Shown here in pieces: positions 54,128 through 63,133 of a stretch of 64,000 nucleotides of DNA (within the stretch, counting starts at the first letter, position 1; each line of letters begins with the position of its first letter). Made by a program: the position numbers and the translations under genes. Location: positions 8,219,913-8,283,912 of the forward strand of contig NZ_KK073874.1 in NCBI RefSeq assembly GCF_000585375.1, in the 5' to 3' direction. The notes beneath the pieces are model-generated. The model was not told the origin of the DNA, searched no databases, and worked only from the letters and a program-made list of their open reading frames with translations. Source of the stretch: Cryptosporangium arvum DSM 44712 (GTDB lineage: Bacteria; Actinomycetota; Actinomycetes; Mycobacteriales; Cryptosporangiaceae).

Positions 54128-54349
54128 TCACCGGGCCCAGCGCTGGGGGTTGTCCTCCAGGGCGGCGCGGTCCCAGCGGCCGAGGTCGGCGGCCGCGTCG
54201 TAGGTGGTGCGGAGGAACTCCGCGATGGCGCGGTCGGGGTCGGGTGCGGCCCGCGCGACCTCGCCGAGCACGCGGTTGGCCTGCAACAGCTGCCGCCAGA
54301 ACAGCGTGGCCGCCGCGGCGTCGTAGGAGGCGTGGGGCTCAGTCGTACA
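54128..54349 (-). pseudogene. DUF5996 remnant lacking its middle
   Basis: A start-less open frame (74 codons with stop) reads HASYDAAAATLFWRQLLQAN-RVL and then directly APDPDRAIAEFLRTTYDAAA-DLGRWDRAALE. In DUF5996 proteins these two blocks, YD..x..RFWRxLVQADRV in the middle and FLxSTYxAAAxLxxWDRxxLE at the end, are separated by about 120 residues carrying the family's conserved core. The first third is missing too. The frame closes at a stop just inside the 3' end of the SDR gene. It is a non-functional leftover. Confidence 0.6.
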
Positions 54350-55085
54350 TTAGGCCGCCGTCGATCAGCAGGCCGATGCCGGTGATGAACGCGGCCTGGT
54401 CGGAGAGCAGGTAGGCCACGGCCTGGGCGATCTCCTGGGTGGTGGCGATCCGGCCCATCGGGATCAGCTCGGCCCACTCCCGCTGGTTCTCCTCCGGGAA
54501 GGCGGCCAGCCCCGCGGTCAGCACGGTGCCCGGGCAGATCGCGTTGATCCGGATGTTGCGGCGCGCGTACTGCAGCGCGGCGTTCTTCGTCAGGCCGATC
54601 ACGCCGTGCTTGGCCGCGGTGTACGCCGCCATCCCGGGCGCGTTCTTGAGCCCGGCGTTCGACGCCATGTTGACGACGCTGCCGTGCCCGGCGTCGACCA
54701 TGACCTTGAGTTCGGCCCGCAGGCACAGGAACGTGCCACGCAGGTCGACGCCGAGCACCTGGTCCCAGGTCTCGATCGGGAGTTCGTGCAGGTCGCTGGG
54801 TGCGTGCCCGATCCCCGCGTTGTTCACGGCCAGGTCCAGGCCGCCGAGGTGACGCACCGAGCGATCGATCAACGCGTCGACGCTGTCCGGGTCGGCGACG
54901 TCCGCGTGGACGAACGTGGCCTGGCCGCCGTCGGCGCGGATCGTCTCGACGGTCCGCTCACCGCCGTCGACGTCGATGTCGGCGACGACGACCCTGGCGC
55001 CGAGCGAAGCGAGGTGCGCCGCGGTCGCCCGGCCGATCCCGGAGCCGGCCCCGGTCACCAGAACGCCCGCGTTGCTGAAAGTCAC
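54339..55085 (-). CDS. Short-chain dehydrogenase/reductase
   Basis: A 248-residue classical SDR: TGAGSGIGRA (NAD(P) loop, near 11-20), ADIDVDGG after beta2 (Asp favours NAD), NNAGIG (89-94), the catalytic Ser in VVNMASNAG, and YTAAK (Tyr and Lys near 155-159). The ending VAYLLSDQAAFITGIGLLID is standard. It is divergent from a DUF4331 gene, and the TAGGA-N-TCCTA palindrome lies 23 bases upstream of its ATG. It is therefore a predicted member of the MarR regulon. Substrate unknown. Confidence 0.92.
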   Translation of the reverse strand: MTFSNAGVLVTGAGSGIGRATAAHLASLGARVVVADIDVDGGERTVETIRADGGQATFVHADVADPDSVDALIDRSVRHLGGLDLAVNNAGIGHAPSDLHELPIETWDQVLGVDLRGTFLCLRAELKVMVDAGHGSVVNMASNAGLKNAPGMAAYTAAKHGVIGLTKNAALQYARRNIRINAICPGTVLTAGLAAFPEENQREWAELIPMGRIATTQEIAQAVAYLLSDQAAFITGIGLLIDGGLMYD

Positions 55086-55107
55086 GGCGATATGCTCCTC
55101 AAGTTGG

Positions 55108-55118
55108 TAGGACTCCTA
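55108..55118. promoter_or_regulatory. MarR-regulon palindrome, site 1
   Basis: Perfect TAGGA-C-TCCTA between the divergent SDR (55085) and DUF4331 (55143) genes. The flanking TCGA on one side is shared with the catalase site (site 4). Central placement suits control of both genes. Confidence 0.75.
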
Positions 55119-55142
55119 TCGAGATCGTGGCATGCTGGGCCC

Positions 55143-56174
55143 ATGTCCCACCACTTGGATTCACCGCTGGCCCGTCAAGACCCCCGACTCAACATCACCG
55201 ACCAGTACGTCTTCGACGTCGACGACGCGACCGTGCTGGTCATGAACGTCCGCACCTCGCTGGCCGGCGCCGACAGCCCGGCCGGTTTCCACCCCGAGGG
55301 CAGGTACGAGTTCAAGATCCACCAGGGCGACGCCGACCGGGAGTCGCTGACGTTCCGCGTCACGTTCGACCCGGAAGCCGCCGACGGAGAGCAGACGTAC
55401 CGCCTGGACCGCCTCGACGGTGACGACGCCGGGCGCGATGACGCCACCGGGACGACCCTCGTCGAGGGCCGGACCGGCCAGGCGATCGACGGCCCCGACG
55501 GCCTCCGGGTCTGGGCCGGCCGCGCCGCCGAGCCGTTCTACCTCGACCTCCGGCTGCTCGGGGCGGTCGACCAGGCGGTCCAGCACGGCCAGGACGTCCC
55601 GATCACCGGCTACTCGGCGGCGGAGAACACGTTCGCCGGGGCCGCGGTCGACAGCATCGTGCTCCAGCTCCCGCACACCGATTCCGTGGTCGCGCTCGGC
55701 CGCGACCTCCGGGTGTGGAGCGTCGCGAAGCTGGCCACGGACGCCGGCGGCTGGCGTCAGATCAACCGGGCCGGCCTGCCGATGATGTGGCCGATCTTCC
55801 GGGACGCCGAGAGCGACGTCGCCAGCGAGGCCGACCAGACCCACCCGGCCGACGACCGGGTCAACTACGCCAAGACGATCACCGACCTGATCGCCGGCGT
55901 CGTGGCCCGGCGCGGCACGTCGTCCCGGCCGGACGCGTACGCGGCGGCGGTGACCGATCGGCTGACCCCGGACACCCTGCCGTACCGGGTCGGTACGCCC
56001 GCGGTGTTCGGCTTCGCCGGGTTCAACGGCAGGCACCTGGCCGACAACGCCCCCGAGGTGATGTTCTCGCTCGTCACCAACAGTGCGGTGACGACCGGGC
56101 TCACCGCGGACCAGACCGCGGCGACCCGGTCGGAGACGTTCCCCTACGTGGTTCCCAGCGCTACGCCCCGATGA
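55143..56174 (+). CDS. DUF4331 family protein
   Basis: A 343-residue protein that begins with the diagnostic MSHHLDSPLARQDPRLNITD of DUF4331. It continues with a beta-rich repeat-like fold (RYEFKIHQGDADRESLTFRV, RAAEPFYLDLRLLGAVDQAV, DSIVLQLPHTDSVVALGRDL, LPMMWPIFRDAESD). The biochemical role is not established. ATG 55143 is chosen because the conserved MSHH start matches the family. It overlaps the convergent FAD oxidoreductase gene by 14 bp at its 3' end. The shared palindrome suggests induction with the catalase and SDR. Confidence 0.85.
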   Translation: MSHHLDSPLARQDPRLNITDQYVFDVDDATVLVMNVRTSLAGADSPAGFHPEGRYEFKIHQGDADRESLTFRVTFDPEAADGEQTYRLDRLDGDDAGRDDATGTTLVEGRTGQAIDGPDGLRVWAGRAAEPFYLDLRLLGAVDQAVQHGQDVPITGYSAAENTFAGAAVDSIVLQLPHTDSVVALGRDLRVWSVAKLATDAGGWRQINRAGLPMMWPIFRDAESDVASEADQTHPADDRVNYAKTITDLIAGVVARRGTSSRPDAYAAAVTDRLTPDTLPYRVGTPAVFGFAGFNGRHLADNAPEVMFSLVTNSAVTTGLTADQTAATRSETFPYVVPSATPR

Positions 56175-57501
56175 TCTGGCGCGCGGCGCGCTCCCCCGAG
56201 CTCAACGACGTGTTGGTGGTGGCGGCCGAGAAGTAGTCGCCGGCATAGAGGACCCGGTCCGCCGGCGACCGACTTCCGAGGAAGCGCCCCAGCGCCGCGG
56301 TGCTGCCCGGGGAGCGCGTCGGCGCGCAGGGGTTCCACCGCTTCACGAACGACATCTCCACCCGCCCGGCCAGACCGCGCAGGCTCTCGAGCTTCGCGAT
56401 CTCACCGAGGGCGGCGTCGGCGACGGAGACGTCGTCGGCCTCCCAGTGCCGGCGGCACCACTGGTCCCGCCAGGAGAACGTCATCAGCCCCTTCCCGTCC
56501 GGGGCTCTCCCGGGCGCCCGGCGGTGATCGTTGATCCACACGAACAGGTCCCGATGCTCGGACTTCGGGACGTTCACCCAGATCGCCTCCTCGGGCAGGC
56601 GCTCGGTGAGTCCGAACATCACCTGGATGCTGCGGACGAGCCGGAGCGTCGTGAAGTAGTCGCGCGCCTCGGGCGTCATCTGGGGGAAGATCTGCGGGAG
56701 GTCGAGCGCGGGAACGGCGAAGACGCAGTAGTCGGCCGATTCGGTGCGTTCGGCCCCGTCCGCGGCCCGCCACGTGACCTGCACCTCGTCGCCCGTCACC
56801 TCGACGTGCTCGACCCGGCAGCCCAGCCGCACGTCCAGGTCCTTCGCCAGCCCGAGCGGAAGGAACGACATCCCCTCGGGCGAGTTGAAGTACGAGCCTC
56901 CGAGCAGGTAGTGCTGGATCGTGAAGAGCACCAGGCCGATCGTGAACTGATCGGCGTCGACCAGGTTCATGGCGCGGCCGAGCGGGCCGACGACGTACTC
57001 CAGCAGCTCCTCGTTGAGGCGCCGCTTGCTGTAGTCCTCGGCCGACTCGTCCCAGTCGGTCGCGCCGGAGAAGTCGTCCCAGCGGAGCGTCGACCGGGCC
57101 CGCCGGACGTCGCGGAGCAGCCGGATCGCCTTCAGCTTCGATCCCGGGCCGAGCAGCCGGGACCGCACCAGCTCCCCCACCGGCCACTGGGCCGCCGGGT
57201 CGACCCGATGGACGTCGGTGCCCCTGAGCGTGCCGATCAGCCCGCTGGTCGGCACGACCTTGCTGGTCAGGCCGGCGTCGGCGATGAGGCGTTTCATCTG
57301 GACGTACGACGACGTGAGTACCGACGCGCCGGTGTCCAGGAGGTAGTCGCCCACCCGTTCGGACTGCATCCGGCCACCGACGCGATCGCTCGCTTCGAGC
57401 GTGATCACGTCGGCTCCGGCCTGGGTCAGCCGGAACGCCGCGGTCAGACCGGCGATGCCCGCGCCGACGACGACGACCTTCCGGCCCGCGAGATCGGTCA
57501 T
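56161..57501 (-). CDS. FAD-dependent amine oxidase / PPOX-like oxidoreductase
   Basis: A 446-residue flavoprotein: GAGIAGLTAAFRLTQAG (FAD loop, 13-29), LEASDRVGGRM with the ribose-binding Glu, GDYLLDTGASVL, a helical substrate domain, and the C-terminal FAD-contact LYAGDYFSAATTNTSLSSGE. It fits the flavin amine oxidase/protoporphyrinogen oxidase/phytoene desaturase superfamily. Its ATG overlaps the terpene synthase stop (57498-57501). The pairing suggests oxidation or desaturation of the terpene product. It is the last gene of the protease-terpene synthase-oxidase operon. Confidence 0.88.
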   Translation of the reverse strand: MTDLAGRKVVVVGAGIAGLTAAFRLTQAGADVITLEASDRVGGRMQSERVGDYLLDTGASVLTSSYVQMKRLIADAGLTSKVVPTSGLIGTLRGTDVHRVDPAAQWPVGELVRSRLLGPGSKLKAIRLLRDVRRARSTLRWDDFSGATDWDESAEDYSKRRLNEELLEYVVGPLGRAMNLVDADQFTIGLVLFTIQHYLLGGSYFNSPEGMSFLPLGLAKDLDVRLGCRVEHVEVTGDEVQVTWRAADGAERTESADYCVFAVPALDLPQIFPQMTPEARDYFTTLRLVRSIQVMFGLTERLPEEAIWVNVPKSEHRDLFVWINDHRRAPGRAPDGKGLMTFSWRDQWCRRHWEADDVSVADAALGEIAKLESLRGLAGRVEMSFVKRWNPCAPTRSPGSTAALGRFLGSRSPADRVLYAGDYFSAATTNTSLSSGERAARQIIGA

Positions 57502-58499
57502 CGGTCCATCCCTTCGAAGATCAGGTCGTCGGTTCCGCCGAGGCTCTCGAGCGCTCCGGCACGGCCGTACCGGTCCGTGCGGGCGTACCAGGCGAGGTGG
57601 CCGCTGAGCAGGTGTTCCAGACCGACCACGTAGGAGGCGGCGGCCCGCCGCGCACGATCGTCGAGAGCCAGCCGGTCGAACGCCACCAGCACCGCGTCGC
57701 GCCGGCTCAGGAACTCACCCAGCCGTTCGACGAAGATCCGGTGGGCCAGCTCGACCGCCTCCGGCAGGCTGCACCGTCGCTCCTCACGCAGGCTGAGCAC
57801 GACGTTGTGGGACTCGCCGTTCGCGAGCTCCCGGTCGAGCGAGCGCAGATCCTGGATGACGATCATGAGGTGCCCGGACGTGGACAGCAGCGCCGCGAAT
57901 TCCGGGCTGTCGCGCACGGCCGCCGGGAGGACGATCCCGTCGGCGAACTCCGCCAGGTCCGCGAGCACCGGCCAGGCGAACGTGTTCATGCGCAGGTCGA
58001 AGTAGGCCCCCGGCGCGGGAATCCGGTTCGCTGCCCGGAACTCGAGCTCGCGGACCAGGCTCCGGCAGTAGTCGTCGAGATGACCGAGCAGGCGTTGGCG
58101 CAGTGGAGCGGGCACGGCGGAGAGCCGGTTCCTGCGCAGATCACTCAACGCGGTCAACAACGGTCCGGACGCGGGGGCACCGGCCAGGACCGCCGACACC
58201 TGGTCCGCGGCCCTGGCCGCGTTGGCGGGCGACCCACCCAGGCGGTGCACGTCGAAATGGTCGTCGTACACGAACATCCAGGCCACGAGTTCGGCCAGCG
58301 TGCGAAGCTCCTCCGCGCCCGCAGCGGGATAGAGGGACGCGACGAGCAGGTCGAAGCGCGCCCGCTCGAACTGCCGGTTCAACTCGGGCGTGGCCAGACC
58401 GGACCGCTGCAGCCAGTGGCGCAGTCGCGCACCGAGCGTCGTGGAGTGCGGGTTGATCCGGGCCGGGAACGGAACGCGCAGGACGGGAACGTCGATCAT
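57498..58499 (-). CDS. Class I terpene synthase-like protein (atypical NSE motif)
   Basis: A 333-residue all-helical protein of the bacterial class I terpene cyclase family. The aspartate-rich motif is present: DDHFD at 79-83 in MFVYDDHFDVH. YFDLRMNTFAW near 166-176 matches the conserved effector region (pyrophosphate-sensor Arg). The second metal motif, normally N-D-x2-S-x3-E, reads QDLRSLDRE (216-224): Asn is replaced by Gln while Asp, Ser and Glu remain. HLAWYARTDRY near the end matches the W...RY motif. It should ionise a prenyl diphosphate, but the altered Mg2+ site makes activity uncertain. No prenyl synthase gene adjoins. Confidence 0.82.
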   Translation of the reverse strand: MIDVPVLRVPFPARINPHSTTLGARLRHWLQRSGLATPELNRQFERARFDLLVASLYPAAGAEELRTLAELVAWMFVYDDHFDVHRLGGSPANAARAADQVSAVLAGAPASGPLLTALSDLRRNRLSAVPAPLRQRLLGHLDDYCRSLVRELEFRAANRIPAPGAYFDLRMNTFAWPVLADLAEFADGIVLPAAVRDSPEFAALLSTSGHLMIVIQDLRSLDRELANGESHNVVLSLREERRCSLPEAVELAHRIFVERLGEFLSRRDAVLVAFDRLALDDRARRAAASYVVGLEHLLSGHLAWYARTDRYGRAGALESLGGTDDLIFEGMDR

Positions 58500-58504
58500 C
58501 GCGG

Positions 58505-59260
58505 TCAGAATTCGCCGATCGTCTCGGTGATCCAGTCGGCGGCGACGTCGACGCGGGCCGTGGTCTCCTCGCCGCTGTGCGGGCAGCCCGGGCCGCTGCT
58601 CTCGGTCGACACGACCTCCGGCCCCGCCTCGGTCATCCGGAAGTACGGTGCGCCGGAGTCGAGCAGGCAGGCGCTCGTGTCCGGCGCCGGCTCCTCGCCG
58701 GTCACGCCGATCGTCGAATCGTCCACACTGGCGACCGTGAACAGGCCGGTCTGCAGATGCTCGGCGGCGGTCGTCAAGCCACCTTTCAGAGCGCCCCAGC
58801 CGGTCAGCCGGAGTTGCTCGCCGGCCTCGGGCTCGATCGCGGCGACCATGATCGGCTCGATGTCGGTCACCGGGGTCTCCAGCCGGGCCAGCGCGATGTC
58901 GTTGACCGGGGACTGCCTCACCTCGGTCACGGCCACGTCCACTCCGCCGTCACCGTCGGCCTCGACCCGGCCGAGCACCACCGTCGTGTCATAGGGCACC
59001 GGGCCACCGACCCGCTTCCCCGCGACGTCGTGGAAGCAGTGCCCGGCGGTCAGCACCCACTCCGGCGCGACGAGCGCGCCCGAACATCCGCTGTCGCGGG
59101 TAGTGCCGTCGGAGTTCGGGATGCCGGTCATCGTCAGCCGGGCCGCGAACTGGAAGTTGCCCTCGTCCACCGGGACGCCGTTGGCCAGCGCGTGAGCCGG
59201 TGACGCGGTCAGCACCAGAGCGGCACCGACAGCTAGGACGAATATCGAAAGCGAACGCAA
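58505..59260 (-). CDS. Secreted trypsin-like serine protease (S1)
   Basis: A 251-residue protein from TTG 59260, chosen because AAGGAG is 5-6 bases upstream and it gives a clean signal peptide (RSLSIFVLAVGAALVLTASP-AHA). The catalytic triad is present: His74 (LTAGHC), Asp121 (VNDIALARL) and Ser202 (CLLDSGAP, a variant of GDSGGP). Cys pairs fit two or three disulfides. The zymogen segment is minimal. The open frame extends far upstream without support. It is the first gene of an operon with the terpene synthase (5-bp gap), and TAGGACTCCTT lies 18 bases upstream of the start. Confidence 0.85.
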   Translation of the reverse strand: MRSLSIFVLAVGAALVLTASPAHALANGVPVDEGNFQFAARLTMTGIPNSDGTTRDSGCSGALVAPEWVLTAGHCFHDVAGKRVGGPVPYDTTVVLGRVEADGDGGVDVAVTEVRQSPVNDIALARLETPVTDIEPIMVAAIEPEAGEQLRLTGWGALKGGLTTAAEHLQTGLFTVASVDDSTIGVTGEEPAPDTSACLLDSGAPYFRMTEAGPEVVSTESSGPGCPHSGEETTARVDVAADWITETIGEF

Positions 59261-59277
59261 GTCAACTCCTTGATAGG

Positions 59278-59288
59278 TAGGACTCCTT
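59278..59288. promoter_or_regulatory. MarR-regulon palindrome, site 2
   Basis: TAGGA-C-TCCTT, one mismatch from the perfect palindrome, just upstream of the protease ribosome site. It would control the protease-terpene synthase-FAD oxidoreductase operon. Confidence 0.65.
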
Positions 59289-59612
59289 TCTAACTTCCGG
59301 ATCGGCGGACGAGCGGCAAGGGACGGATTCCGGTCACTGACGCCGGACGGCGCTCCGTCCTCCACGCGTCGATCGATCGCCGATTCGACGGTGTGACCAG
59401 CGCAGACACCGGGCCGTCCCGCCGAGTTCATCCGGTGCGACGTCGACCACATGAGACCGTGGTCACGCCGGTCCTCCCGCCTCCGTCTGGGCAGGCTCGA
59501 CCCGAAACGGACCCATCCGACGAGGAGCCCCGCTCCGGCACATCCGGCTCGAAGTCGGCCATCCTCGCAGCTGAGCGGGGTCGGTGGCACTCGGAAGCAA
59601 CCGCTAACGAGC
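59289..59612. other. Divergent intergenic region, protease operon / marR
   Basis: About 320 bases with no supported gene. Open frames crossing it are extensions of the protease frame or unrelated low-complexity sequence. It should hold the two divergent promoters; no further palindrome of the TAGGA type was seen inside it. Confidence 0.5.
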
Positions 59613-59629
59613 TAGGATGACGTGTCCTA
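59613..59629. promoter_or_regulatory. MarR-regulon half-sites before marR, site 3
   Basis: TAGGA and TCCTA arms are both present but 7 bases apart instead of 1 (TAGGA-N7-TCCTA), 14 bases before the marR ATG and overlapping its leader. The different spacing could give weaker autoregulation. Confidence 0.5.
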
Positions 59630-59643
59630 CCGAAGGCGGTCAG

Positions 59644-60240
59644 ATGATCGACGGCACGGCCGACCTGGATCGGCGGCTGGCGGATACCGTCGAGCGGCTC
59701 GCGAACGGCTTGCGCGCGCTTGCTCAGCGCAGCGCCCGCCGGCACAACCTGTCGCCGCTGCAGCAACAGGTCGTGCTCGCACTCAGCCGGCAGCCCCCGG
59801 CCCGGCGCGAGGTCAACGCGCTCGCCGGCGAGTTCGACGTCACCACACCCACCGTCTCCGATGCCGTGGCCGCGCTCGAACGCAAGCAGTTGCTGACCCG
59901 CTCACCGGGCTCGGACGGGCGTCGACGTGTGCTCACGCTCACCGAGCTCGGCACCACCGTCGCCGAGGAGCTCAGCGGGTGGGACGGCTCGCTACTCGAA
60001 GCGCTCTCCGTCCTGCCGGTGGAGGACCGGGCGACGACGCTGCACACGCTGCTGCGCGTCATCGCCGACCTGCAGCGCCGGGGCGCGATCAGCGTCGCGC
60101 GCACGTGCACGACGTGCCGGTTCTTCCGGCCCGACGTGTACCCCGATCCGGCCGCTCCGCACCGGTGCGAGCTGCTGCAGATGCCGCTGCCCCTCACCGA
60201 GCTCCGGACCGACTGCCCGGAGCACGAACTGGTCGGATAG
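59644..60240 (+). CDS. MarR-family regulator with four C-terminal cysteines
   Basis: A 198-residue protein. MarR winged helix at about 35-110: LSPLQQQVVLALSRQPPARR, EFDVTTPTVSDAVAALERKQ (recognition helix) and the wing RSPGSDGRRRVLTLT. After the dimerisation helix comes an unusual C-terminal segment with Cys155-x2-Cys158 (TCTTCRFF), Cys175 (PHRCELL) and Cys191 (TDCPEH), which could hold zinc or an iron-sulfur cluster. ATG 59644 has GAAGG 7 bases upstream. It is surrounded by TAGGA-N-TCCTA palindromes in front of catalase, SDR/DUF4331 and the protease-terpene operon, so a redox-responsive repressor is the natural reading. Confidence 0.88.
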   Translation: MIDGTADLDRRLADTVERLANGLRALAQRSARRHNLSPLQQQVVLALSRQPPARREVNALAGEFDVTTPTVSDAVAALERKQLLTRSPGSDGRRRVLTLTELGTTVAEELSGWDGSLLEALSVLPVEDRATTLHTLLRVIADLQRRGAISVARTCTTCRFFRPDVYPDPAAPHRCELLQMPLPLTELRTDCPEHELVG

Positions 60241-60254
60241 CGGCCGGTCGGGCG

Positions 60255-61721
60255 TCACAGCGCGCCGATCGCCTCGCACGCCTTGCGTACGCCCTCGCCG
60301 TAGGCGGGATCGGCCTTGGCGCAGTTCGCGACGTGGCGTTCGACGGTCTCCCGGCGGGCGCCCTTGATCGCTCGCGCGGTGTTGTCGAACAGCACCTGCT
60401 GCTGCGCGCCGGTCATCGACCGGAACAGGTCACCCGGCTGCTCGTAATAGTTGTCGTCGTCGGCCCGGAAATCGAACCGATCGGCGGTGCCACCGACGGC
60501 CCGGGCCGGCTCGGCGAACGCCGGCTGCTCGGGCCAGCGTCCGAAGCTGTTCGGCTGGACGCCCGGCACGCCACCCTGGTTGCCGTCGACACGCATGGCC
60601 CCGTCCCGGTGGTACGAGTTCACCAGCCGCGCGCCCCGCGGGTAGTTCACCGGGATCTGGTGGTGGTTGACGCCCAGCCGGTAGCGGGCCGCGTCCCCGT
60701 AGGAGAACAGACGTCCCTGGAGCATCTTGTCCGGGCTGAGCGAGATGCCCGGCACGACGTTCGCCGGCGTGAACGCGACCTGCTCGACGTCGGCGAAGTA
60801 GTTCTCCGGGTTGCGGTCGAGTTCGAGCACGCCCACCTCGATCAGCGGGTAGTCCTTCTTGCTCCACACCTTCGTCAGGTCGAACGGGTGGAAGCGGTAG
60901 TCCTCGGCGTCGCGCTCCGGCATGACCTGGACGTAGAGCTTCCAGCTCGGGAAGTCGCCGCGCTCGATGGCGTCGAACAGGTCGCGCTGGTGGGACTCGC
61001 GGTCCTGACCGATGAGCGCGCCGGCCTCCTCGTCGGTGAGGTTCTGAATCCCCTGCTGGGTGCGGAAGTGGAACTTCACCCAGTGACGCACCCCGGCGGC
61101 GTTGACGAAGCTGAACGTGTGGGATCCGAAGCCGTGCATGTGGCGGTAGGAGCGGGGAATGCCGCGCTCGCTCATCACGATCGTCACCTGGTGCAGTGCT
61201 TCCGGCAGGTTCGTCCAGAACCCCCAGTTGTTCTCCGCGCTGCGCATGTTGGTGCGCGGGTCACGCTTCACGGCGTGGTTCAGGTCGGGGAACTTCAGCG
61301 GGTCGCGGAAGAAGAAGACCGGAGTGTTGTTGCCGACGACGTCCCAGTTGCCCTGCGGGGTGTAGAAGCGCACGGCGAAGCCACGGATGTCGCGCTCGGC
61401 GTCGGCCGCACCGCGCTCGCCGGCGACCGTGGAGAAGCGCACGAACGTCTCGCACGTGTTGCCGACGGCGTTGAAGAGCTCGGCCATCGTGTAGCTGCTG
61501 ACGTCGTTGGTGACCGTGAAGGTGCCGAACGCGCCGGAGCCCTTGGCGTGCATCCGCCGCTCGGGGATGACCTCGCGGTCGAAGTGTGCGAGCTTCTCCA
61601 GCAGCCAGAGGTCCTGCAGCAGCACCGGCCCACGTGGACCCGCGGTGAGACTGTTCTGGTTGTCCGCGACCGGCGCCCCGGCGGCCGTGGTCAGCGGATC
61701 GAGGTTGTCTTCGGCGGCCAT
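60255..61721 (-). CDS. katA: Monofunctional heme catalase
   Basis: A 488-residue small-subunit catalase that dismutates H2O2. The distal His58 is in [16 protein letters not shown], the distal Asn131 in [14 protein letters not shown], and the proximal heme-ligand Tyr in [24 protein letters not shown] and NHHQIPVN are also typical. It is convergent with marR (14-bp gap) and divergent from a beta-lactamase gene. The perfect TAGGA-C-TCCTA palindrome is 19 bases upstream of its ATG. Peroxide-inducible control by the MarR protein is inferred. Confidence 0.96.
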
Positions 61722-61739
61722 TGCTCACTCTCAGTTCAG

Positions 61740-61750
61740 TAGGACTCCTA
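61740..61750. promoter_or_regulatory. MarR-regulon palindrome, site 4
   Basis: Perfect TAGGA-C-TCCTA followed by TCGA as in site 1, between the catalase (61721) and beta-lactamase (61824) genes. It is much closer to the catalase start. Confidence 0.75.
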
Positions 61751-61823
61751 TCGACACTGTGTCAGAATGGACCGCGGCAGGACAAGTCAAACCTGACTCA
61801 CTCAAGAAAAGAGGGCATCTGAC

Positions 61824-62684
61824 ATGGTGCGGCTGTTCGCGGTGGCAACCTCGCTGGCCTTGGTGTTCACCGGGTCGGCGGCCACCGCCGCCCCGTCCGA
61901 TACCCGCGATGCCCTGCGTCGGTTGGAGTCGACCTACGACGCCAGGCTCGGCGTCTACGCGGTCGACACCGGCACCGGACGCACGGTCGCGTACCGGGCC
62001 GACGAGCGGTTCGCCTACGCGTCGACGTACAAGGCGCTCGCCGCGGCCGCGGTGCTCGACCGCACCGACCCCGCCGACCTGAACCGGGTCGTGCGCTACA
62101 CCGCCGCCGACGTGGTGGACGGCTCGCCGGTCACCGCGGAACACGCCGGGCGGGGCCTGCCGCTCGGCCGGATCGCCGAAGCGGCGATCACCAAGAGCGA
62201 CAACACGGCCGGGAACCTGCTGTTCCGCGAACTCGGCGGCCCGGCCGGCTTCGAGCGGGAACTACGCTGCCTCGGCGACCGGGTGACCTCGGCGGACCGC
62301 CTGGAGCCTGCCCTCAACGGTGCGGTGCCCGGCGACGTCCGCGACACCAGCACGCCGCGCGCGCTCGCCGCCGACCTGCGTGCCTACGCGCTCGGCGACG
62401 CGCTCGACGTCGCGGACCGGGGCCGCCTGGTCGGCTGGCTGCGCGGCAACACCACCGGCGCCGAGCTGATCCGCGCCGGCGTCCCGGCCGGCTGGATCGT
62501 CGGTGACAAGACCGGCGCCGCTGAGTACGGAACCCGCAACGACATCGCGGTGCTCTGGCCTCCGTCCGGTGCGCCGATCGTCCTCACGGTGCTCTCCCGC
62601 AAGACCGACGCGGACGCGAAGTACGACAACGCCCTGATCGCCGATGCCGCCCGCGTGGTCTCGGCCGAGCTGCGGTCGGCATGA
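61824..62684 (+). CDS. bla: Class A serine beta-lactamase
   Basis: A 286-residue exported enzyme with a Sec signal peptide (about 1-22). Active-site elements: Ser-x-x-Lys in [11 protein letters not shown] in TKSDNTAGN, the omega-loop Glu in RLEPALNG (E-x2-L-N), and K-T-G in [11 protein letters not shown]. All catalytic residues are present, so penicillin or cephalosporin hydrolysis is expected. ATG 61824 lies in a modest GAGGGCATCTGAC context. The stop overlaps the next gene by ATGA. No BlaI/BlaR regulator is nearby. Housekeeping class A enzymes are common in soil actinomycetes. Confidence 0.94.
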
Positions 62685-63133
62685 CGCACACGACGCGGAT
62701 CACCGTCCGCAGCGACGACATCGACGCCAACGGGCACGTGCGTGACTCGAAGTACCTCGACTACGCGGTGCACGCGCGCTGGGTGACGCTGGCGCACGCC
62801 GGGCTCGACGCCGGGAAACTGGTCGCGGCCGGGCTGGGACCGGTCAACCTCGAGGTGTCGATCACCTACGCGCGCGAGGTGGTGCTCGGCGACGAGATCG
62901 CGGTCGAGACCCGGTTCGAGTACCCGTCGCCGAAGCTCGTGAAGGTCGTGCAGACGCTGACCCGGCGCGACGGGATCGTCGCCGCGCAGGTCGTCAGCGT
63001 CACCGGGCTGATGGACCTGCGCCGGCGCAAGCTCGTCGACGACGCGGCCGGACGCTACGGCGAGTTCCTGAGCGACCTGACCGTGGTCGATCTCGTCCCG
63101 TTCACAGGCTCTGCCCCCCGGACAGATCGATGA
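62681..63133 (+). CDS. Hotdog-fold acyl-CoA thioesterase (4HBT/FatA-like)
   Basis: A 150-residue single hotdog domain: [20 protein letters not shown], with the catalytic-type Asp/Asn-H of the 4-hydroxybenzoyl-CoA thioesterase family (D-x-x-G-H-V-N position reads D-A-N-G-H-V-R), [20 protein letters not shown] and [20 protein letters not shown]. It starts on an ATGA overlap with the beta-lactamase gene and ends 32 bp inside the convergent SDR remnant. Substrate unknown. Confidence 0.85.

Follow-up and report, generated by a model that had tools for sequence, protein, structure and literature searches.

Several promoters in one stretch of the Cryptosporangium arvum DSM 44712 genome carry the same short palindrome, TAGGA-N-TCCTA, close to a gene for a MarR-family regulator. 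This raises the question of whether the palindrome is the operator of that regulator and, if so, which genes and which signal it connects. The stretch, called the window here, covers 64,000 nucleotides (8,219,913-8,283,912) of a 9.2-Mb single-contig genome. Positions are those of the window unless stated otherwise.

A palindrome repeated at promoters

The operators found in the window, and the genes that they adjoin, are as follows.

55102-55124 (core 55108-55118), no strand: operator O1, in the SDR/DUF4331 divide; 30.0 bits
59272-59294 (core 59278-59288), no strand: operator O2, ahead of a trypsin-terpene synthase-FAD oxidase operon; 27.4 bits
61734-61756 (core 61740-61750), no strand: operator O3, in the catalase/class A beta-lactamase divide; 22.7 bits
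54339-55085, minus strand: SDR oxidoreductase (Pfam adh_short_C2)
55143-56174, plus strand: DUF4331 protein (Pfam PF14224, E 1.3e-20)
56161-57501, minus strand: FAD-dependent amine-oxidase-type oxidoreductase (Pfam PF01593)
57498-58499, minus strand: sesquiterpene-synthase-like protein (Pfam PF19086; NCBIfam isoafricanol synthase 165.7 bits, under the cut-off of 500)
58505-59260, minus strand: secreted trypsin-like protease, first gene of the operon (Pfam Trypsin)
60255-61721, minus strand: catalase (83-87% identical to the catalases adjoining marR orthologs)
61824-62684, plus strand: class A beta-lactamase (NCBIfam NF033103, 306 bits; cut-off 200)

The initial annotation had reported perfect palindromes at the cores of O1 and O3 and a one-mismatch copy at O2, and all three were recovered, each in a promoter. 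Shuffled windows held a mean of 0.14 matches, and none of 100 reached three. Site centres lie 23-30 bp from the start codons of the SDR, DUF4331, protease and catalase genes, while the centre of O3 is 79 bp from the beta-lactamase start.

Across the genome, the perfect core TAGGASTCCTA occurs six times and its reversed control not at all. This is far above chance, as rough arithmetic gives an expectation of about 0.13. Three congeneric genomes, none of which has an ortholog of the MarR protein described below, contain no perfect copy, and the 345 other genomes of the class (346 surveyed) hold 25 altogether, with no genome exceeding two. The perfect cores of G004, G008, G063 and G072, whose extended scores are low, were read as chance.

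One-mismatch 11-mers are not enriched genome-wide (40 places vs 65 for the reversed control), and the count was therefore restricted to perfect or extended sites; as further targets, the one-mismatch copies were dropped, and those checked also had low PWM scores. A second operator type with a wider spacer (TAGGA-N5-9-TCCTA, the spacer-7 palindromes) was likewise rejected, with two occurrences vs seven for the control. The extended 19-mer is found in 11 places vs one in the control, and the best eight are the eight promoters assigned to the regulon (L046 6825, L046 12962, L047 13573, L048 4298, L054 4168, and window 55113, 59283 and 61745). Genome-wide counts come from pattern search, the PWM having been applied to chosen regions.

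All eight of the strongest sites are intergenic, which answers for them the concern, raised with the original proposal, that the motif might be equally frequent inside genes. Site 55113 had been flagged as intragenic by the automatic gene caller, which miscalled this divide; it lies between the SDR start at 55085 and the DUF4331 start at 55143. A look-alike palindrome is present between genes for a Gig2-like protein and a ROK regulator in C. arvum (24.5 bits; L109 5022, about 9.001 Mb) and in G007 (L112 5077). The C. arvum copy was set aside as a regulon member because similar sites occur in genomes without the tailed MarR, and it is probably the ROK protein's own site.

A MarR protein with a four-cysteine tail

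The regulator gene lies between O2 and O3.

59644-60240, plus strand: marR, encoding a 198-aa MarR-family regulator from the start ATG 59644 (Pfam, orthologs, translation)
60106-60225, plus strand: cysteine tail C155-x2-C158-x16-C175-x15-C191-x2-H194 (conservation in 44 tailed homologs, model)

By sequence and predicted fold, the product is a member of the MarR family. It scores 30.8 bits with Pfam MarR_2 (cut-off 27) and 28.2 bits with MarR (cut-off 24.6). The only NCBIfam match in a scan at E 0.001 was HpaR (TIGR02337), at 29.4 bits against a cut-off of 121.2. The AlphaFold model has a pLDDT of 89, and the tail (about 82-90) is predicted to form a short hairpin module. The best Foldseek/PDB neighbours, MepR, ST1710 and RovA, match the winged-helix part over about 130-150 residues, and the tail itself matched no Pfam or PDB entry.

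Translation from ATG 59644 bears out the C-terminal cysteines 155, 158, 175 and 191 noticed in the initial annotation, and these are the only cysteines of the protein. Thirty-one relatives were recovered by scanning bacterial genomes. In an alignment of relatives and a class sample, the four tail cysteines are invariant in 44/44 tailed homologs, with C2-C3 spacings of 11-22 residues. The His preceding C3 is missing in two mycobacterial-family homologs (YRC) and the last His of the tail is Tyr in an Ensifer homolog; since both His positions vary, the four cysteines are the constant part of the tail.

The operator follows the tailed MarR across phyla

Aligned sites beside marR orthologs yield a symmetric 23-bp consensus, ACTAGGTAGGASTCCTACCTAGT, built around the TAGGASTCCTA core. 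Among tailed orthologs in Actinomycetota, Alphaproteobacteria, Bacteroidota, Balneolota and Thermus, the operator is found beside marR or its partner genes in nearly all cases. Sites in the scanned ortholog loci and own-genome regions are intergenic and near start codons, with very few exceptions. In an independent class-wide sample, a site accompanies the main-type tailed MarR in eight of nine loci, and the ninth is on a short contig; these loci and the test loci from other phyla were left out of matrix building. No site was seen at five tail-less MarR loci of the class sample, nor in 33 ordinary-MarR loci (110.9 kb) and 20 Markov windows.

For example, plasmid records of Sphingomonas, Ensifer, Tistrella and Defluviimonas carry the site 16-29 bp ahead of marR, and in Hymenobacter it is found in a catalase-HTHP-protoglobin-DUF2024-small protein-marR-MOSC cluster. 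Thermus has a weaker site ahead of a cytochrome P460-marR pair. This pair was observed on the T. thermophilus megaplasmid pTT27 (L153 3527-4543), with a TAGGAATCCCA site upstream. Loci from Paraburkholderia (L159), Streptomyces (L077) and Nocardia (L080) showed no site at the thresholds applied.

Together, these comparisons make a strong case, on sequence grounds, for linking the operator to the tailed MarR. The MarR-centred regulon proposed at the outset, with the catalase, protease-terpene synthase-oxidase and DUF4331 genes, is upheld in that the operator accompanies the MarR from phylum to phylum, and congeners without the protein have no perfect copy. The best catalase in these congeners is only 51% identical. 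Another palindrome, TCGCTAGGGCTCCCTACGA, is dispersed in several copies in the congeners G001, G002 and G003 (e.g. G002:C1:188237) and is not among the own-genome matches.

Target genes

The tailed MarR probably controls about eight promoters in C. arvum, including those of catalase, protoglobin and terpene genes. The eight sites precede a P450-terpene synthase pair; protoglobin; P450/histidine kinase; M4 protease/glycine-transporter-like; a class V aminotransferase; SDR/DUF4331; trypsin-terpene synthase-FAD oxidase; and catalase/beta-lactamase. The members named in the initial annotation stand, but its list was too narrow: the regulon comprises at least eight promoters and also takes in the protoglobin, the beta-lactamase and a pair of P450 promoters, one of them ahead of a second terpene synthase. 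The protoglobin gene is 4 Mb away from marR, and its site nonetheless scores 32 bits. The beta-lactamase is a likely further target. Its gene overlaps the start of a thioesterase gene (61824-63133 for the two together), and both may therefore form one operon under O3.

In other bacteria, the core regulon consists of protoglobin, CMD/AhpD-like, redoxin, MOSC, GATase, FUR and catalase genes. Pseudonocardiaceae have the order CMD-redoxin-protoglobin / marR / MOSC-GATase / FUR-catalase, the operators being located at the divides; Ensifer has marR-CMD-redoxin-GATase divergent from a cupredoxin gene. In Bacteroidota and Balneolota (L079-L086), the operator precedes DUF2024 or protoglobin genes or a gene for a 76-78-aa thioredoxin-like protein (FYHAGCPVC), which matched no Pfam family. 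Mycobacterial-family and related genomes have the site in the gap that separates toluene-monooxygenase-like operons from marR or from a beta-carbonic-anhydrase-marR pair. A beta-carbonic-anhydrase-family gene and such operons were observed beside the tailed MarR at L140-L143, in mycobacterial-family and other actinobacterial genomes. Target functions are mostly related to peroxide, NO, haem and oxygenases.

Promoter layout

Many target promoters have an extended -10 element (TGTGGCATGCT-like) 12 nt from the core, so that the operator is centred at about -30; this class shows no convincing -35 hexamer. Where marR has a proximal operator, the core follows a TATCCT/TATGAT box by 0-10 nt, and the operator thereby covers the start site. 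The same placement just past the -10 element would apply to divergent partners, for example catalase and FUR. The Bacteroidota operators directly adjoin a TAnnTTTG-like element. Overall, these positions favour repression, and activation of the -30 class is possible. The promoter elements assigned in the window are listed below.

55131-55136, plus strand: CATGCT, likely extended -10 of DUF4331, 12 nt past the O1 core (spacing conserved in target promoters)
61763-61768, plus strand: CAGAAT, likely -10 of the beta-lactamase, 12 nt past the O3 core (spacing conserved in target promoters)
59613-59618, plus strand: TAGGAT, probable marR -10 hexamer (spacing as for TATGAT in the Amycolatopsis jejuensis marR promoter, L060)
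59625-59629, plus strand: TCCTA, the right operator half that is left in the marR promoter (comparison with the L058/L060 marR promoters)

The last two elements make up the widened half-sites (59613-59629) that the initial annotation had read as an operator of marR itself. The letters are present, but their reading as a normal operator is not supported. Alignment of the own marR promoter with that of A. jejuensis (TAGGAT-GACGTG-TCCTA vs TATGAT-AAGGAG-TCCTA) pairs TAGGAT with TATGAT at equal spacing, so the widened site most likely combines a -10 box with a single operator half. With only TCCTA left of the operator, autoregulation may be weak here.

A sister clade with a different half-site

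C. arvum also encodes a MarR paralog with the same cysteine tail, which belongs to a sister clade (100/100).

G000:C1:5730034-5731244 (L049 6084-7254; 5.73 Mb in the genome): MarR paralog, after a CMD/AhpD-like gene in an apparent operon

The promoter of this CMD/AhpD-like gene contains tandem TTGGCASTGCCAA palindromes, and the same gene arrangement occurs in G325, G373 and G218. Tandem TTGGCASTGCCAA repeats are present in the marR/CMD region of four of five sister-clade members; in the fifth (L056), none was seen in the approximately 100 bp inspected. The two perfect copies in the C. arvum genome are found only in the paralog's marR/CMD region. The sister-clade operator has the main-type geometry and another half-site (TTGGCA-S-TGCCAA). 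This combination of common geometry and different half-site suggests that protein and operator coevolved.

Comparison with known regulators

The tailed MarR resembles MepR, ST1710 and RovA in its winged helix, its palindromic operators near gene starts and, for the marR genes of relatives, an autoregulatory position. However, these proteins are without the four-cysteine tail, and their operators and targets differ. The thiol-switch regulators OhrR, MgrA, SarZ and AsrR share the MarR fold and oxidative-stress targets. Their switch cysteine is in the N-terminal part of the fold, whereas the tailed MarR has no cysteine before residue 155, and so lacks the reactive N-terminal cysteine that marks OhrR and MgrA.

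SufR combines a winged helix with a C-terminal cysteine cluster, and is the regulator of Fe-S biogenesis targets in a separate winged-helix family. The likeness to the tailed MarR lies in the winged helix and the C-terminal cysteines; family and targets differ, and the NCBIfam SufR model gave no match to the MarR product (scan at E 0.001). SufR has been named alongside ArnR of Corynebacterium, which has a winged helix reminiscent of MarR/ArsR proteins and C-terminal cysteines at 179, 193 and 223 (PMC12343034). ArnR is a [4Fe-4S], NO-responsive repressor of the globin gene hmp, with narKGHJI and hmp as targets, and was reported to have no sequence homologs beyond its own group (PMC12343034). 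By analogy, it offers a precedent for a winged-helix protein whose C-terminal cysteines can carry an NO-reactive [4Fe-4S] cluster (PMC12343034). Both proteins have C-terminal cysteines on a winged helix, but ArnR has three, spaced by 14 and 30 residues, and the tailed MarR four, at 155, 158, 175 and 191, which sets it apart from ArnR, as do its targets.

Mechanism and alternative explanations

Computation establishes the operator, its tie to the tailed MarR, the targets, the conservation of the cysteines and the promoter layout, while dimer binding, repression, the metal or cluster and the signal are inferred. The explanation favoured here, which is considered fairly likely, is that a MarR dimer binds the 23-bp palindrome and bars RNA polymerase from the regulon promoters, with the operator at about -30 upstream of an extended -10 in one gene set and just past the -10 for the marR genes of relatives. 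The four C-terminal cysteines would form a metal or Fe-S site, and its reaction with oxidants or nitrogen oxides would release the DNA. Release would switch on defence genes, among them catalase and protoglobin, and in C. arvum the terpene, P450, protease and beta-lactamase genes as well. Several points count against this explanation: the own-genome marR is without a full operator, some targets (terpene synthases, proteases, SDR) are not stress genes, the Paraburkholderia, Streptomyces and Nocardia loci mentioned above have no site, and the -30 position could also suit an activator.

This last point leads to an alternative in which the regulator activates the -30 class, standing in for the missing -35 contact. 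The fixed 12-nt spacing from core to -10 in many target promoters, with no good -35 hexamer, agrees with it. However, the core just downstream of the -10 box in marR promoters occupies a repressor position, and extended -10 promoters do not require a -35, and activation of this class is considered unlikely. Two further readings keep the regulator and operator unchanged and alter the signal. The tail could be a structural zinc site, with the usual MarR cleft taking up a small-molecule signal such as a hydrocarbon, phenolic or terpenoid; the variable C2-C3 spacing suits a zinc knuckle, many MarR proteins bind phenolic-type ligands, and terpene synthases, P450s and toluene-monooxygenase-like operons are among the targets. 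This retains a modest chance, although the targets at the core of the regulon in different phyla (catalase, redoxin, protoglobin, CMD and MOSC) do not make up a single degradation pathway.

Sensing of haem or iron status would account for the many haem proteins among the targets (catalase, protoglobin, P450, cytochrome P460 and the hexameric tyrosine-coordinated haem protein) and for the FUR gene, and PefR, a MarR haem sensor, is among the structural neighbours. It is nevertheless very unlikely, given that CMD, redoxin, GATase, MOSC, DUF2024 and SDR are non-haem proteins, that no haem biosynthesis or transport gene was seen adjoining a site, and that the Cys-Pro dipeptide of the tail is not invariant among tailed homologs. 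Hardly credible is the idea that the palindrome belongs to another regulator near the tailed MarR, such as FUR, an ECF sigma factor or a ROK protein. A similar Gig2-like/ROK site does exist in genomes with no detected tailed MarR (L112 of G007; the G001 match AAGTAAGGAGTCTTACCTA), but the site accompanies MarR over phyla, and the tailed MarR is the sole gene common to the motif-bearing ortholog loci, with FUR and sigma genes in few. That a metal or Fe-S site in the tail would sense oxidants or NO is a reasonable candidate reading of the signal; the cysteines are invariant, and the target list agrees with oxidative or nitrosative stress.

Implications

Searches of open-licence papers found nothing on point for the motifs, the tail, or the regulator with protoglobin, DUF2024, cytochrome P460 or iron-sulfur. 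Within the literature searchable, there appears to be no earlier description of the tail module, the trans-phylum operator or the regulon. The regulator is not a new kind, since it is MarR-family by sequence and predicted fold. Nevertheless, the Cys4 tail, with no Pfam entry or solved structure, is a candidate sensor module of a new type, based on a metal or an Fe-S cluster.

Retention of an operator sequence with a single regulator across phyla is uncommon, and it allows the regulon of any genome to be read off the sequence. The operator also offers a way into the regulation of bacterial protoglobins, DUF2024, MOSC and CMD proteins, and of silent terpene/P450 clusters, which treatment with oxidants or NO might switch on. 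A tentative scenario, put at somewhat below even chances, is that the sister clade switched its half-site and that some actinobacteria brought terpene, P450, protease and beta-lactamase genes under this control, which would make oxidative or nitrosative stress a trigger of secondary metabolism.
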